Under the pieces are notes generated by a model. The model did no database searches. It was not told the DNA's origin and worked only from the letters and a program-made list of their open reading frames with translations. A program made the position numbers and the translations under genes. Of a stretch of DNA of 64,000 bases, positions 50,546 to 55,393 are shown one piece after another (within the stretch, counting starts at the first letter, position 1; each line of letters opens with the position of its first letter). The DNA lies in assembly GCF_019331695.1 (NCBI RefSeq), contig NZ_JAHBBI010000008.1, forward strand, positions 1-64,000, read 5' to 3'. The DNA is from Bifidobacterium pluvialisilvae. GTDB taxonomy: Bacteria > Actinomycetota > Actinomycetes > Actinomycetales > Bifidobacteriaceae.

Positions 50546-50592
50546 CGGTGTGCGTAACACGAACGCCGAACTGTCCACATAGTGGCCCTCGA

Positions 50593-50622
50593 TTGGCGTA
50601 TGCCGTAGGCCGCGCCTATCTT
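50593..50622 (+). promoter_or_regulatory. predicted promoter of the attenuated MHS transporter transcript
   Basis: TTGGCG (50593-50598) and TATCTT (50617-50622), separated by 18 bases, lie 46 bases before the leader ribosome site. Confidence 0.5.
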
Positions 50623-50684
50623 CTCAAGTGGTTCGGGTCGAAAGGCCCGCAAAGATGTATGACGCCGAAAGGAGGTTCGCCAAG

Positions 50685-50771
50685 ATGTACGGAATGACCG
50701 CAACCAAGCTGAATGTCGCACTTGCTGCTGTGTCCGGCCGAATTATTATTCCGTCTTCGTTGGCGGACTGA
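50685..50771 (+). CDS. 28-residue leader peptide rich in branched-chain residues
   Basis: A strong AAAGGAGG (50668-50675) stands 9 bases before an ATG that opens 28 codons and a TGA at 50769. Eight residues are Ile, Leu or Val, and codons 20-22 are three consecutive ATT (Ile) at 50742-50750. The peptide ends Pro-Ser-Ser-Leu-Ala-Asp. Placement before paired hairpins and a terminator, ahead of a transporter and two ilvC genes, makes it a probable attenuator leader that senses charged tRNA-Ile. It is too short for homology; the assignment is by architecture. Confidence 0.75.
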   Translation: MYGMTATKLNVALAAVSGRIIIPSSLAD

Positions 50772-50864
50772 TTCGACATTTTCCACTGTTCGATCCCGTC
50801 AACGTGGCGGGGATCGGAACAGACAAAATCTAGTTTTGAGCTCCGCCAAAAGCGGGGCTTTTTT
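50758..50864 (+). promoter_or_regulatory. ribosome-mediated transcription attenuator
   Basis: Segment 1 (50758-50766, CGTTGGCGG, inside the leader) can pair with segment 2 (50796-50804, CCGTCAACG, one G-U). The arm containing segment 2 instead pairs with segment 3 in hairpin 50788-50820. Segment 3 (50806-50812, GGCGGGG) can also pair with segment 4 (50841-50847, CTCCGCC). Segment 4 otherwise pairs with segment 5 to form the terminator AGCTCCGC..GCGGGGCT plus a T-run (50839-50864). Stalling at the Ile codons leaves segment 1 free, giving 1:2, then 3:4, and read-through. Translation to the stop masks segment 1, giving 2:3, then 4:5, and termination. Confidence 0.75.
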
Positions 50865-51024
50865 CATATCGCATGATCGAGATCCGATACACGGAATGAA
50901 AAACGAGCGATGGAAGACAACTCAAGAAACTGAGAAACCCGGGAATCGGACGGACGGCCGCTTGCAGAGAGAAACCGTTGGCCCCCGAACAGAAGATTCA
51001 CGGACTACACAGGAGATTAGAGAA

Positions 51025-52377
51025 ATGACAGCAGTCGAGGCTACGACTGATAGCAAACTCAAGACGATGGCGCGTGACTCCGTCAAGACCGTCATCGCCG
51101 CCTCCATGGTCGGCACGGCCATCGAGTTCTACGACTTCTACGCATACGGCACCGCCGCTGCGAACTACTTCCCGCACATCTTCTTCTCCGACAAGGCGAA
51201 CCCGACGGTCGCCCTGCTCATGAGCCTGCTCACGTTCGCCATCGCGTTCATCGCCCGCCCGCTCGGCTCGCTGGTGTTCGGCCACTTCGGCGACCGCATG
51301 GGCCGCAAGACCACGCTGGTCGTCTCCCTCATGACGATGGGCGTCGGCACGTTCCTCATCGGCTGCCTGCCGACCTACAACACGTGGGGCATCGCCGCGG
51401 TCGCCATCCTCTGCCTGCTGCGCTTCATCCAGGGCATCGGCCTGGGTGGCGAATGGTCCGGCGCCGCACTGGTCGCCACCGAGAACGCGCCTGAGAACAA
51501 GCGCGCCCTCTACGGCTCCTTCCCGGAGCTCGGCGCCCCGATCGGCTTCTTCCTCTCCAACGGCACCTACTTCGTGCTTGAGTCCTTCAACGACTCCGCC
51601 GCCATGCTCGCCTGGGGCTGGCGCGTGCCGTTCCTGCTGAGCGCTATCCTCGTGATCATCGGCCTCGTCGTGCGAGTCCACATGGAGGAGACCCCGATCT
51701 TCCGCATGGCCCAGGAGCAGAAGAAGGTCGTCAAGTCCCCGCTCACCGAGGTGTTCCGCAAGAGCTGGCGTCAGGTCCTGCAGGCCACGTTCCTCGTCGC
51801 CGTCACCTACACGCTGTTCTACACGCTCGCCACGTGGTCGCTCGCCTGGGGCACCAAGGCCCAGGGCGAGGGCGGCGGTGGCCTCGGCTTCTCCAACCAG
51901 GAGTACCTGCTCATGCTGATGATCGCCATCTGCGTGTTCGCCGCCTTCATCGTGATCTCCTGCGTGAACGCCGACAAGTTCGGCCGCAAGCGCGTGATCG
52001 TCACCTCCTCCGTGCTGCTCGTCGTGTTCGCCGCCCTGTTCCCGTTCCTGCTCAACGGCCAGATCGTCGGCCAGCGCAACTTCTTCGCCAACATGGTGTT
52101 CCTGTGCGTCGGCTTCGCCCTGATGGGCACCGCGTTCGGCCCGATCGGCGCCTTCCTGCCCGAGCTGTTCGACGCCAACGTGCGCTACTCCGGCTCCGGC
52201 ATCGGCTACAACCTCGCCGCCATCGTCGGCGCGGCCTTCGTGCCGACCATCGCCACCTGGCTGTCCAGCCACTTCGGCGTCCACTCGGTGGGTCTGTACC
52301 TCGGCGTCATGGCCGTGTGCTGCCTCGTCGCGGTGCTCTCGTGCCATGAGACTAAGAACGTTGATTTCACGAAGTGA
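51025..52377 (+). CDS. MFS transporter of the metabolite:H+ symporter (MHS) family
   Basis: The 450-residue protein has 12 membrane helices. MVGTAIEFYDFYAYGTAAA, the loop GHFGDRMGRKTTLV and RFIQGIGLGGEWSGAALVATEN are the MHS (ShiA/ProP/KgtP) signatures. MHS members carry dicarboxylates, betaines, proline or shikimate. The Ile-codon attenuator upstream and the two ilvC genes downstream suggest a branched-chain amino acid or keto acid as substrate, which is inference. AGGAG precedes the ATG by 9 bases. The last codons (NVDFTK) are copied in the 121-bp tandem repeat that follows. Confidence 0.85.
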   Translation: MTAVEATTDSKLKTMARDSVKTVIAASMVGTAIEFYDFYAYGTAAANYFPHIFFSDKANPTVALLMSLLTFAIAFIARPLGSLVFGHFGDRMGRKTTLVVSLMTMGVGTFLIGCLPTYNTWGIAAVAILCLLRFIQGIGLGGEWSGAALVATENAPENKRALYGSFPELGAPIGFFLSNGTYFVLESFNDSAAMLAWGWRVPFLLSAILVIIGLVVRVHMEETPIFRMAQEQKKVVKSPLTEVFRKSWRQVLQATFLVAVTYTLFYTLATWSLAWGTKAQGEGGGGLGFSNQEYLLMLMIAICVFAAFIVISCVNADKFGRKRVIVTSSVLLVVFAALFPFLLNGQIVGQRNFFANMVFLCVGFALMGTAFGPIGAFLPELFDANVRYSGSGIGYNLAAIVGAAFVPTIATWLSSHFGVHSVGLYLGVMAVCCLVAVLSCHETKNVDFTK

Positions 52378-52640
52378 AATCAAGTTCCAAGTCTCATCCT
52401 CGCGCTCGATGACTCGCGCTCGCTTCGGCTTCGGGAACAGTCCACTGGACTGTTCCCATGGAGAAGCCTCAGCTAAGAACGTCGGCTTCACGAAGTGAAA
52501 TCAAGTTCTAAGTCTCATCCTCGCGCTCGATGACTCGCGCTCGCTTCGGCTTCGGGAACAGTCCACTGGACTGTTCCCATGGAGAAGCCTCAGCTAAGAA
52601 TGTCGACTTCACCAAGTGAAGCCGAATTCCGAGTCTCATC
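52352..52640 (+). repeat. 121-bp tandem repeat starting inside the MHS gene
   Basis: ctaagaacgt begins units at 52352 and 52473 and a partial unit at 52594 (ctaagaatgt), spaced 121 bases. Each unit opens with codons for AsnVal(Asp/Gly)PheThrLys-stop and then holds gcgctcgatgactcgcgctcg and the hairpin GGGAACAGTCCAC..GTTCCC. Only the first copy is in the gene. The hairpins may end the transporter transcript. Confidence 0.85.
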
Positions 52641-52941
52641 ATCGGCGGATTTCACCGAGTTCTCCGGTGGAATTCAGCTTCCGTTCATCCGACGGTGGTC
52701 GAATGAACACAGCGCGGACGACGGCCCACAACGCCACCGCCCGCGATACGAAAATTCAATATTCAATATTTGGACGCGGACTTCCGCGTCAGATGCTGGT
52801 GGACTAGAACTAGTTCCCAGTGATCGATGACTTTCAACGTCTAGGACACAATCCTTCTCGCCGAAGGCCGTCAGCAATCTCAACCGATTGCCGGACGTCC
52901 AACGCTCGGTAATCACCAAACAATATAAAGGAGTGCCAATC
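52641..52941. other. upstream region of ilvC1
   Basis: A hairpin GACGCGGA-CTT-TCCGCGTC-like is at 52771-52788 and a ctagaactag palindrome at about 52805. An AT-rich aattcaatattcaatattt stretch near 52755 may carry the promoter. No terminator-type T-run or credible leader peptide was seen, so control differs from the MHS gene. Confidence 0.4.
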
Positions 52942-53994
52942 ATGGCAGCAACTATCTGGTACGAGAAGGACGCCGATCTGTCCGTGCTCGAAGGCAAGAA
53001 GGTGGCCATCCTCGGCTACGGTTCCCAGGGTCACGCCCATGCGCTGAACCTGCGTGATTCCGGTGTCGACGTGGTCGTCGGCCTGCGTCCGACCTCCAAG
53101 TCGGTCCAGTTCGCCAAGGAGCAGGGCCTCGAGGTCAAGTCCGTGCCGGAGGCCGTCGCCGAGGCCGACATCGTCATGATCCTGCTGCCTGACCAGTACC
53201 AGGCCGCCGTGTACAAGAAGGACGTCGAGCCGAACCTGAAGCCGGGCGCCGCTCTGGCCTTCGCCCACGGCTTCAACATCCACTACGGCTACATCAAGCC
53301 CACCGAGGATCACCCGGTGTTCATGGTCGCCCCGAAGGGCCCGGGCCACATCGTGCGTCGTGAGTACGCCGCCGGCCGTGGCGTCCCGGTGGTTGTGGCC
53401 GTCGAGCAGGATCCGCGTGGCGACGGCTGGGCCATCACCCTGGCCTACGCCAAGGCCCTCGGCGCCCTGCGCGCCGGCGCCATCAAGACGACCTTCAAGG
53501 AAGAGACCGAGACCGATCTCTTCGGCGAGCAGGACGTCCTCATGGGCGGCATCAACCACCTGTGCGACCTCGGCTTCGACGTGCTGACCGAGGCCGGCTA
53601 CCAGCCGGAGATCGCCTACTTCGAGGTGTTCCACGAGCTGAAGATGCTGGTCGACCTCGCCAACGAGGGTGGTCTGAACAAGGCCCGCTGGTCCTGCTCC
53701 GACACCGCCCAGTACGGTGATTACACCTCCACCGTCATCACCGACGAGACCAAGAAGCGCATGCAGTACCAGCTCAAGCGCATTCAGGACGGCTCCTTCG
53801 CCAAGGAGTTCATGGACGACCAGGCCGCCGGCGCCCCGAAGTTCAAGAAGCTGCAGGAAGAGTTCTCTCACCCGCACCTGGAGACCGTTGGCCCGAAGCT
53901 TCGCGCCATGTTCTCTTGGAACAACGGCCCGGCCAAGGACGCCGATGAGGCTGAGTCCTTCAACGGCAAGATCGCTCGTACCCAGGTTCAGTGA
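52942..53994 (+). CDS. ilvC: ketol-acid reductoisomerase, copy 1
   Basis: The 350-residue class I enzyme converts acetohydroxy acids to dihydroxy-isovalerate or -methylvalerate in valine, leucine and isoleucine synthesis. The Rossmann motif [20 protein letters not shown] and the following RPTSKS loop indicate NADPH use. The Mg-binding C-terminal KARI domain includes [11 protein letters not shown] and [17 protein letters not shown] precedes the ATG by 8 bases. A second complete copy of identical length follows, and part of the two genes is identical at the DNA level. A T-rich terminator at 54042 separates them. Confidence 0.96.
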
Positions 53995-54041: not shown

Positions 54042-54086
54042 AAAAATCCCGTCGTTCCGGCTTCGGTCGGGGCGGCGGGATTTTTT
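54042..54086 (+). terminator. terminator of ilvC1
   Basis: AAAAATCCCG pairs with CGGGATTTTTT around an inner CCG/CGG stem. Just before it (53996-54040) is a very AT-rich run of attaataatt repeats, unlike anything else in the window. Confidence 0.88.
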
Positions 54087-54340
54087 GCTGGGCAACCATC
54101 TGACCGCCCACGTTGTGGACGCGAATGTGACGTACGCGACATTATCGGTAGGATGGTGGGCAGTTTGCAGGACAAAATCCTCAGATGAGCTCGTCTGAGT
54201 GGACGATCGAGCGGTTCATGATCGTTTCGCGGGGTATGCCGCGTGGGTGACTGGCCGACGGCGTCCCGGACACCACGCGCGTCATGCGCGGCGCTTATGC
54301 GCAACCACAACAACATTCGCAGTAGTTAAGGAGTGCTTAC
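54087..54340. promoter_or_regulatory. upstream region of ilvC2
   Basis: A possible promoter is TGTGAC (54126-54131) and TAGGAT (54149-54154), 17 bases apart. A small hairpin CTCAGA..TCTGAG follows near 54181. No leader peptide with branched-chain codons and no attenuator terminator was seen. AAGGAG stands before the ilvC2 start. Confidence 0.4.
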
Positions 54341-55393
54341 ATGGCTGCACAGATTTGGTACGAAAACGACGGCGATCTCTCCGTCCTCTCCGGCAAGAAG
54401 GTCGCCATCATCGGTTATGGCTCCCAGGGTCACGCCCATGCGCTGAACCTGCGTGATTCCGGTGTCGACGTGGTCGTCGGCCTGCGTCCGACCTCCAAGT
54501 CGGTCCAGTTCGCCAAGGAGCAGGGCCTCGAGGTCAAGTCCGTGGCCGAGGCGTCCGCCGAAGCCGACGTCATCATGATCCTCGCCCCCGATCAGTACCA
54601 GCGCACCATCTGGGCCAACGACATCGAGCCCAACATCAAGGAAGGCGCGGCCGTCGCCTTCGCCCACGGCTTCAACATCCACTACGGCTACATCAAGCCG
54701 ACCGCCGACCACCCGGTCTTCATGGTCGCGCCGAAGGGCCCGGGCCACATCGTGCGTCGTGAGTACGCCGCCGGCCGTGGCGTCCCGGTCGTGGTCGCCG
54801 TCGAGCAGGATCCTCGCGGTGACGGCTGGGCGCTGACCCTCGCCTACGCGAAGGCCCTCGGCGCCCTGCGCGCCGGCGCCATCAAGACCACGTTCAAGGA
54901 AGAGACCGAGACCGATCTCTTCGGCGAGCAGAACGTGCTCATGGGCGGCGTGAACAAGCTCGTCGAGATGGGCTTCGAGGTCCTCACCGATGCCGGCTAC
55001 CAGCCGGAGATCGCCTACTTCGAGGTCTGCCACGAGCTGAAGATGCTCGTCGACCTCATGAACGAGGGTGGTCTGAACAAGGCCCGTTGGTCCTGCTCCG
55101 ACACCGCCCAGTACGGCGACTACACCAACACCGTCATCAACGAGGACTGCCGCAAGCGCATGGAGTACCACCTGGGCCGCATCCAGGACGGTTCCTTCGC
55201 CAAGGAGTTCATCGACGACCAGGACGCCGGCGCCCCGCACTTCAAGGAGCTGCAGGAGAAGTACTCCAACGAGCGCATCGAGACCGTCGGCCCGAAGCTG
55301 CGCGCCATGTTCTCCTGGAACAAGGACGCCGTGAAGGACGCCGACGAGGCCAACTCCTTCACCGGCAAGATCGCCCGCGCCCAGGTGCAGTGA
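54341..55393 (+). CDS. ilvC: ketol-acid reductoisomerase, copy 2
   Basis: The 350-residue enzyme has the same domains and motifs as copy 1 ([38 protein letters not shown]) and is about 85 percent identical by eye. A stretch of about 120 bases covering the cofactor loop is identical to copy 1, including third codon positions, while flanking codons differ, as expected after gene conversion. AAGGAG precedes the ATG. Its separate promoter region suggests that the two copies are expressed under different conditions. Confidence 0.96.

Follow-up and report, generated by a model that had tools for sequence, protein, structure and literature searches.

A predicted isoleucine-codon attenuator in front of an MHS-type transporter and ilvC, conserved across the Bifidobacteriaceae

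The attenuators of ilvGMEDA and leu in E. coli depend on ribosomes stalling at branched-chain codons. These codons are a mixture of Ile, Val and Leu in the case of ilvGMEDA and Leu codons in the case of leu, and both targets are biosynthetic operons. The his attenuator of E. coli consists of the segments A to F with the codons located in the first arm; pairing of A:B, C:D and E:F turns the operon off, pairing of B:C and D:E turns it on. In a survey of Actinobacteria from 2005, which included B. longum, no ilv attenuator was reported for this species (PMC1262725).

In the window analysed here, i.e. a whole stretch of 64,000 nucleotides of Bifidobacterium pluvialisilvae DNA, a transporter gene and the gene ilvC1 are preceded by a leader which is very probably a ribosome-mediated transcription attenuator sensing charged tRNA-Ile and controlling both the MHS-type transporter and ilvC1. 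Conservation, covariation and state-by-state folding predictions all speak strongly for attenuation at Ile codons, as put forward in the initial annotation.

Leader, pairing segments and predicted states

A short ORF with a ribosome site and tandem Ile codons is followed by mutually exclusive hairpins ending in an intrinsic terminator:

50593-50622, plus strand: putative promoter from sequence reading (TTGGCG, 18 nt spacer, TATCTT)
50670-50675, plus strand: Shine-Dalgarno sequence AGGAGG of the leader ORF, kept in nearly all related leaders
50685-50771, plus strand: leader peptide ORF of 28 codons, reading MYGMTATKLNVALAAVSGRIIIPSSLAD followed by the stop
50742-50750, plus strand: regulatory codons ATT ATT ATT (Ile)
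50739-50755, plus strand: segment 0 with the Ile codons, pairs with segment 1
50757-50775, plus strand: segment 1 (ORF end, stop codon and next bases), pairs with segment 0 or 2
50786-50804, plus strand: segment 2, pairs with segment 1 or 3
50805-50822, plus strand: segment 3, pairs with segment 2 or 4
50839-50848, plus strand: segment 4, 5' arm of the terminator and 3' arm of the antiterminator
50852-50864, plus strand: segment 5 and T run of the intrinsic terminator, matched by the scan
about 50838-50864 (hairpin 50839-50859), plus strand: intrinsic terminator found by terminator scan, arms AGCUCCGC and GCGGGGCU, then T run

The 28-codon ORF, the good ribosome site, the three ATT codons and the T-run terminator of the initial annotation were all recovered between 50670 and 50864, AGGAGG standing nine bases 5' of the leader ATG. 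The putative promoter was not flagged by a simple promoter scan; its -10-like box (CCTAT..T) is conserved across species. The fold of the 186-nt leader beat 199 of 200 dinucleotide shuffles (z -2.3). All four pairings already proposed exist in the window, with duplex or hairpin energies of -15.0 (1:2), -15.5 (2:3), -18.9 (3:4) and -14.5 kcal/mol (4:5). The number of segments had to be corrected from five to six, since the Ile codons themselves (segment 0) pair with segment 1 in a conserved hairpin at 50739-50775. A direct 1:4 pairing (UUGGCGGA with UCCGCCAA) was considered as a simpler switch and rejected, being weaker in the window (-12.7 kcal/mol) than 1:2 or 3:4.

Folding of the window leader gave terminator or antiterminator depending on the position of the ribosome. 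With no ribosome, the lowest-energy fold contains 0:1, 2:3 and 4:5. With a ribosome on the Ile codons (RNA free from 50757), 1:2 and 3:4 are formed both before and after segment 5 is made, and with a ribosome at the stop codon (RNA free from 50782) the fold consists of 2:3 and 4:5. Judged by the customary toeprint distance, the 3' edge of a ribosome that holds the first Ile codon in its A site is expected near 50754-50755, ahead of 50758, where the pairing of segment 1 with segment 2 begins; once at the stop codon, the ribosome covers segment 1. The geometry assumed before (coverage to about 50756, segment 1 at 50758) was thus about right.

From these states we infer ribosome stalling and read-through as follows. 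When isoleucine is plentiful, the ribosome would reach the stop codon and cover segment 1, whereupon 2:3 and the 4:5 terminator would form and transcription would stop. When isoleucine is scarce, the ribosome would stall on the ATT codons and cover segment 0, allowing 1:2 to form; segment 3 would then be free to pair with segment 4 as the antiterminator, and transcription would continue. The leader having six segments, the predicted state in the absence of translation is therefore off (0:1, 2:3 and 4:5).

Among the relatives, all 66 distinct leaders formed 1:2 and 3:4 when folded as stalled with RNA up to segment 4, a criterion which is loose in that 241 of 660 shuffles passed it as well. The equilibrium folds of the finished leaders did not separate the states, 4:5 being present in 32 of 66 with the ribosome at the stop codon vs 31 of 66 with the ribosome stalled. 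Because of this, the order of folding during transcription must matter in many species.

Conservation and covariation of the leader

A search of a genome collection yielded 80 named loci, which belong to Bifidobacterium and its close relatives. Essentially every one of these loci has an ORF that is led by a Shine-Dalgarno sequence and ends in a variant of RII[I/S]PSSLAD. This end is kept among the relatives, whereas the N-terminal part is variable in both length and sequence. In an alignment of 57 sequences, the core starts with ten invariant bases, CGAATTATTA. In 81 sequences the three codons after an invariant CGA encode III (48), IIS (29), IIN (2) or IMI (2), at least two of the three always being Ile codons; about 40% of the leaders carry two Ile codons instead of three.

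A covariance model of the leader, run on 189 genomes of the family (E <= 2e-5), detected the element in 116 of them. An ortholog of the MHS-like transporter is present in 119 Bifidobacteriaceae genomes and every one of these has the leader, 113 according to the model and six by reading (G014, G023, G029, G034, G040 and G050, with a divergent Ile leader that is readable by eye and gave no strong model match). Relatives possessing the transporter and lacking the Ile run were sought in these 119 genomes and none was found. The parts of the leader are not due to chance, because they are conserved across the transporter-bearing genomes. Three genomes (G102, G107 and G145) have the leader and no full match to the transporter ortholog; in G102 the transporter is interrupted by the contig end. 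A paralog of the transporter with 58% identity has no such leader in the nine genomes read, the window's own genome contains no second significant match to the model (next E 0.1), and no leader was found outside the Bifidobacteriaceae in the sampled genomes of the order.

The Ile run was kept in the alignment of related leaders, and the stems 0:1, 1:2, 3:4 and 4:5 covary. Pairs were counted on the 57-sequence alignment. In shuffles that ignore relatedness, so that their counts are not to be read as probabilities, the covariation score was reached in none of 500 for 0:1 (95.7% paired, 13 double-change cells), 1:2 (96.8%, 25 cells) and 4:5 (97.4%, 18 cells), in 3 of 500 for 3:4 (87.9%, 14 cells) and in 268 of 500 for 2:3, which is conserved (91.0% paired) with no covariation support. 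RNAalifold, run unguided, picked 1:2 and 4:5. Swapping segment 2 between sequence classes weakened 1:2 from a native mean of -18.8 to a permuted mean of -16.95 (sd 0.53), and only 2 of 5000 permutations of this segment-1/segment-2 test were as strong as the native combination. The pairing 1:2 is not explicable by coding constraint, because it joins coding and non-coding sequence.

Some leaders deviate in form. Two Bifidobacteriaceae MAGs (UW_DM_BIF2_1, L116, and UW_DM_BIF1_1, L119) keep RIIITP, but their set of hairpins is shortened and arranged differently, a single T-run terminator following shortly after the ORF; this may be a simpler attenuator. Pseudoscardovia-type genomes (L019, L021 and L023) encode leader peptides of unusual length (about 49-68 codons), in which a stretch rich in Val, Leu and Ile precedes the RII end.

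The leader might also work mainly by translation or ribosome release, i.e. translation of the small ORF would affect downstream translation or the access of Rho, and the hairpins would be incidental. The actinobacterial ilvB leaders are ambiguous in this respect, as a change of the candidate regulatory codons in the S. coelicolor ilvB leader had no effect (PMC1262725), and the equilibrium folds described above, which fail to separate the states in all species, would agree with such a mode of action. However, the T-run intrinsic terminator is conserved with covarying arms, as is the antiterminator arm competing with it, and the ribosome site of the transporter (about 51011-51015) lies about 150 nt past the terminator, outside the switching segments, which makes this explanation very unlikely. 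Even less probable, to the point of being negligible, is a metabolite riboswitch or a T-box in place of a leader peptide. A structured 5' leader with a terminator would be expected of these, too, but no Rfam family reached its gathering score, the best sub-threshold matches being unrelated families with E 0.09 or worse, for which reason T-box, riboswitch and known Rfam leaders were rejected. Furthermore, the Shine-Dalgarno-led ORF is kept with its invariant Ile codons, the N-terminal part being free to vary.

Transcription unit, further leader copies and the substrate of the transporter

The genes downstream of the leader and a candidate operator upstream of it are the following:

50573-50587, plus strand: NdgR/LtbR-like palindrome operator GTCCACATAGTGGCC, predicted by resemblance
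51025-52377, plus strand: MFS transporter nearest the metabolite:H+ symporter (MHS) subfamily, 450 aa, PF00083 and PF07690 above cut-offs
52942-53994, plus strand: ilvC1, ketol-acid reductoisomerase (KARI_N and KARI_C)
54341-55393, plus strand: ilvC2, neighbour of ilvC1 (KARI_N and KARI_C)

The initial annotation had named an MHS-family transporter as the target. Membership in the MFS with MHS as the nearest subfamily held; TIGR00883 was the best of all NCBIfam models, but its score of 413 bits stays below the curated cut-off of 443.45. Judged by its sequence, the protein is filed here only as an MFS protein nearest MHS. Going by this transporter, the nearest named relatives of the window are B. 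catulorum, B. primatium and B. saimiriisciurei.

ilvC1 is probably co-transcribed with the transporter and part of its transcription unit, because in none of 79 loci was a plus-strand intrinsic terminator found in the gap (median 343 nt) that separates transporter and ilvC; read-through would then continue into ilvC1. An internal promoter between the two genes is possible. After ilvC1 a terminator-like hairpin with a T run is visible at about 54047-54087, and ilvC2 is probably a separate transcription unit.

A small hairpin with the loop CA[AC]AA (GGACACAATCC, GGACAAAATCC) is located 5' of both ilvC genes (window 52844-52854 and 54170-54180), the only two places in the genome with the exact form. 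It was found upstream of 88 of 111 ilvC copies vs 64 of 3000 random windows and, in the related loci L040-L119, sits soon after a -10-like box. Its outer stem varies in some species with the pairing kept, and some leaders contain a related motif in the linker that joins segments 3 and 4. The gap between transporter and ilvC1 also contains two near-identical units of about 120 bases (window 52383-52600), including GGGAACAGTCCACTGGACTGTTCCC.

In most of the 80 related loci, a palindrome GT[CT]CACATAGTG[GA]AC is located ahead of the putative promoter. This 15-bp palindrome, to which the candidate operator of the window has one mismatch, fits the form GTCCA-N6-GGAC of the NdgR ChIP-seq sites in S. 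coelicolor (PMC4340878). Furthermore, the window's own genome contains an IclR-type regulator gene divergent from leuCD, and ndgR and leuC of S. coelicolor are arranged in the same way (PMC4340878). By resemblance and synteny only, the palindrome and the IclR-type gene beside leuCD thus agree with an NdgR/LtbR regulon. Control by an IclR-type regulator at the promoter level is likely, too; an NdgR/LtbR-type regulator acting at 50573-50587 probably has a share in setting initiation. One further site in this genome (one mismatch, C12:168465) was set aside, its neighbourhood being untied to branched-chain genes.

The leader is not confined to the MHS-type transporter. In three genomes it stands directly before ilvC, i.e. 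in two of B. asteroides type (L154 and L155), where ilvC lies away from the transporter, and in G145 (L157). In three genomes it precedes a sodium/bile-acid-type transporter: G145 (L156), G107 (L159) and G204 (L158). These proteins match PF01758 above its cut-off and score below the cut-offs of PanS NF047939 (240 bits, cut-off 400) and TIGR00841 (250 bits, cut-off 326). The MHS-type ortholog is absent from G145 and G107, two of the three genomes, as if one transporter had been exchanged for another, unrelated one with the sensor left in place. In the window's own genome, a second transporter of the sodium/bile-acid type is absent. Some sodium/bile-acid-type genes (G167:C1:2231422, G224, G206, G053, G057 and others) contain an in-frame stop inside the matched stretch, which could be gene decay or a match running past the gene end.

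The branched-chain amino or keto acid guessed earlier as the substrate is plausible, and this guess is strengthened because the leader is also found on a second, non-homologous transporter family. The transporter may be assumed to import a metabolite of the isoleucine pathway, either an amino acid or a 2-oxo acid. By analogy with related sodium/bile-acid-type transporters, a 2-oxo acid of the isoleucine pathway would be the likeliest substrate: pantoate is bound by a PanS relative, and the relatives in plants transport pyruvate and chain-elongated 2-keto acids (PMC10645422).

Alternatively, the attenuator may act as described and the substrate of the transporter be ketopantoate or pantoate, a precursor of the pantothenate type. 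By the above scores, the sodium/bile-acid-type transporter with the leader comes closest to PanS, and binding of pantoate by a PanS relative points in this direction. Moreover, IlvC can act on ketopantoate. However, the sensor codons are Ile codons, which give no readout of pantothenate, the PanS equivalog cut-off is not reached, and among 82 genomes that possess a related transporter of this type, the leader was seen in front of it in only 3. A pantothenate precursor is thus an unlikely substrate. Tentatively, and with somewhat more doubt than trust, we propose that one Ile-sensing leader has passed between ilvC and two unrelated transporter families, one transporter replacing the other in some genomes, and that it thereby labels an uptake system not recognised so far, the substrate being a branched-chain 2-oxo acid or some other precursor of isoleucine.

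Comparison with known attenuators

No report of this leader in Bifidobacterium was found in the literature, as covered by open-licence papers. The attenuation mechanism is classical and known; the target, the family-wide conservation and the occurrence of one leader common to ilvC and two unrelated transporter families appear unreported. Bifidobacteria would thereby join the hosts of classical attenuation, which here would act throughout the family and on a transporter as its first target. This opens an experimental way to ask from where gut bifidobacteria take their isoleucine or its precursors. Furthermore, the leader can be used as a functional label, since it tags two transporter families and ilvC as one Ile-responsive set and, being shared, narrows the substrates of both families.

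In architecture, the leader resembles the his attenuator of E. coli and Salmonella, as it forms a chain of six alternately pairing segments with the codons in the first one. It differs by its Ile instead of His codons, by the transporter and ilvC as targets and by its host family, the Bifidobacteriaceae; the likeness is restricted to architecture and implies no sequence relation. In the ilvB(NC) attenuators of Corynebacterium, Mycobacterium and Streptomyces, too, the leader encodes a peptide with branched-chain codons, and a terminator stands ahead of a branched-chain gene (PMC1262725, PMC11857589). Their target, however, is ilvB, and the Ile, Val and Leu codons overlap with the terminator (PMC1262725), whereas the bifidobacterial leader has Ile codons only and is directed at the transporter and ilvC. 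On inspection, ilvB of the window's own genome has no such Ile leader. Stalling at branched-chain codons, finally, is the feature in common with ilvGMEDA and leu of E. coli, from which the bifidobacterial leader differs by the use of Ile alone and by a transporter as the first gene.
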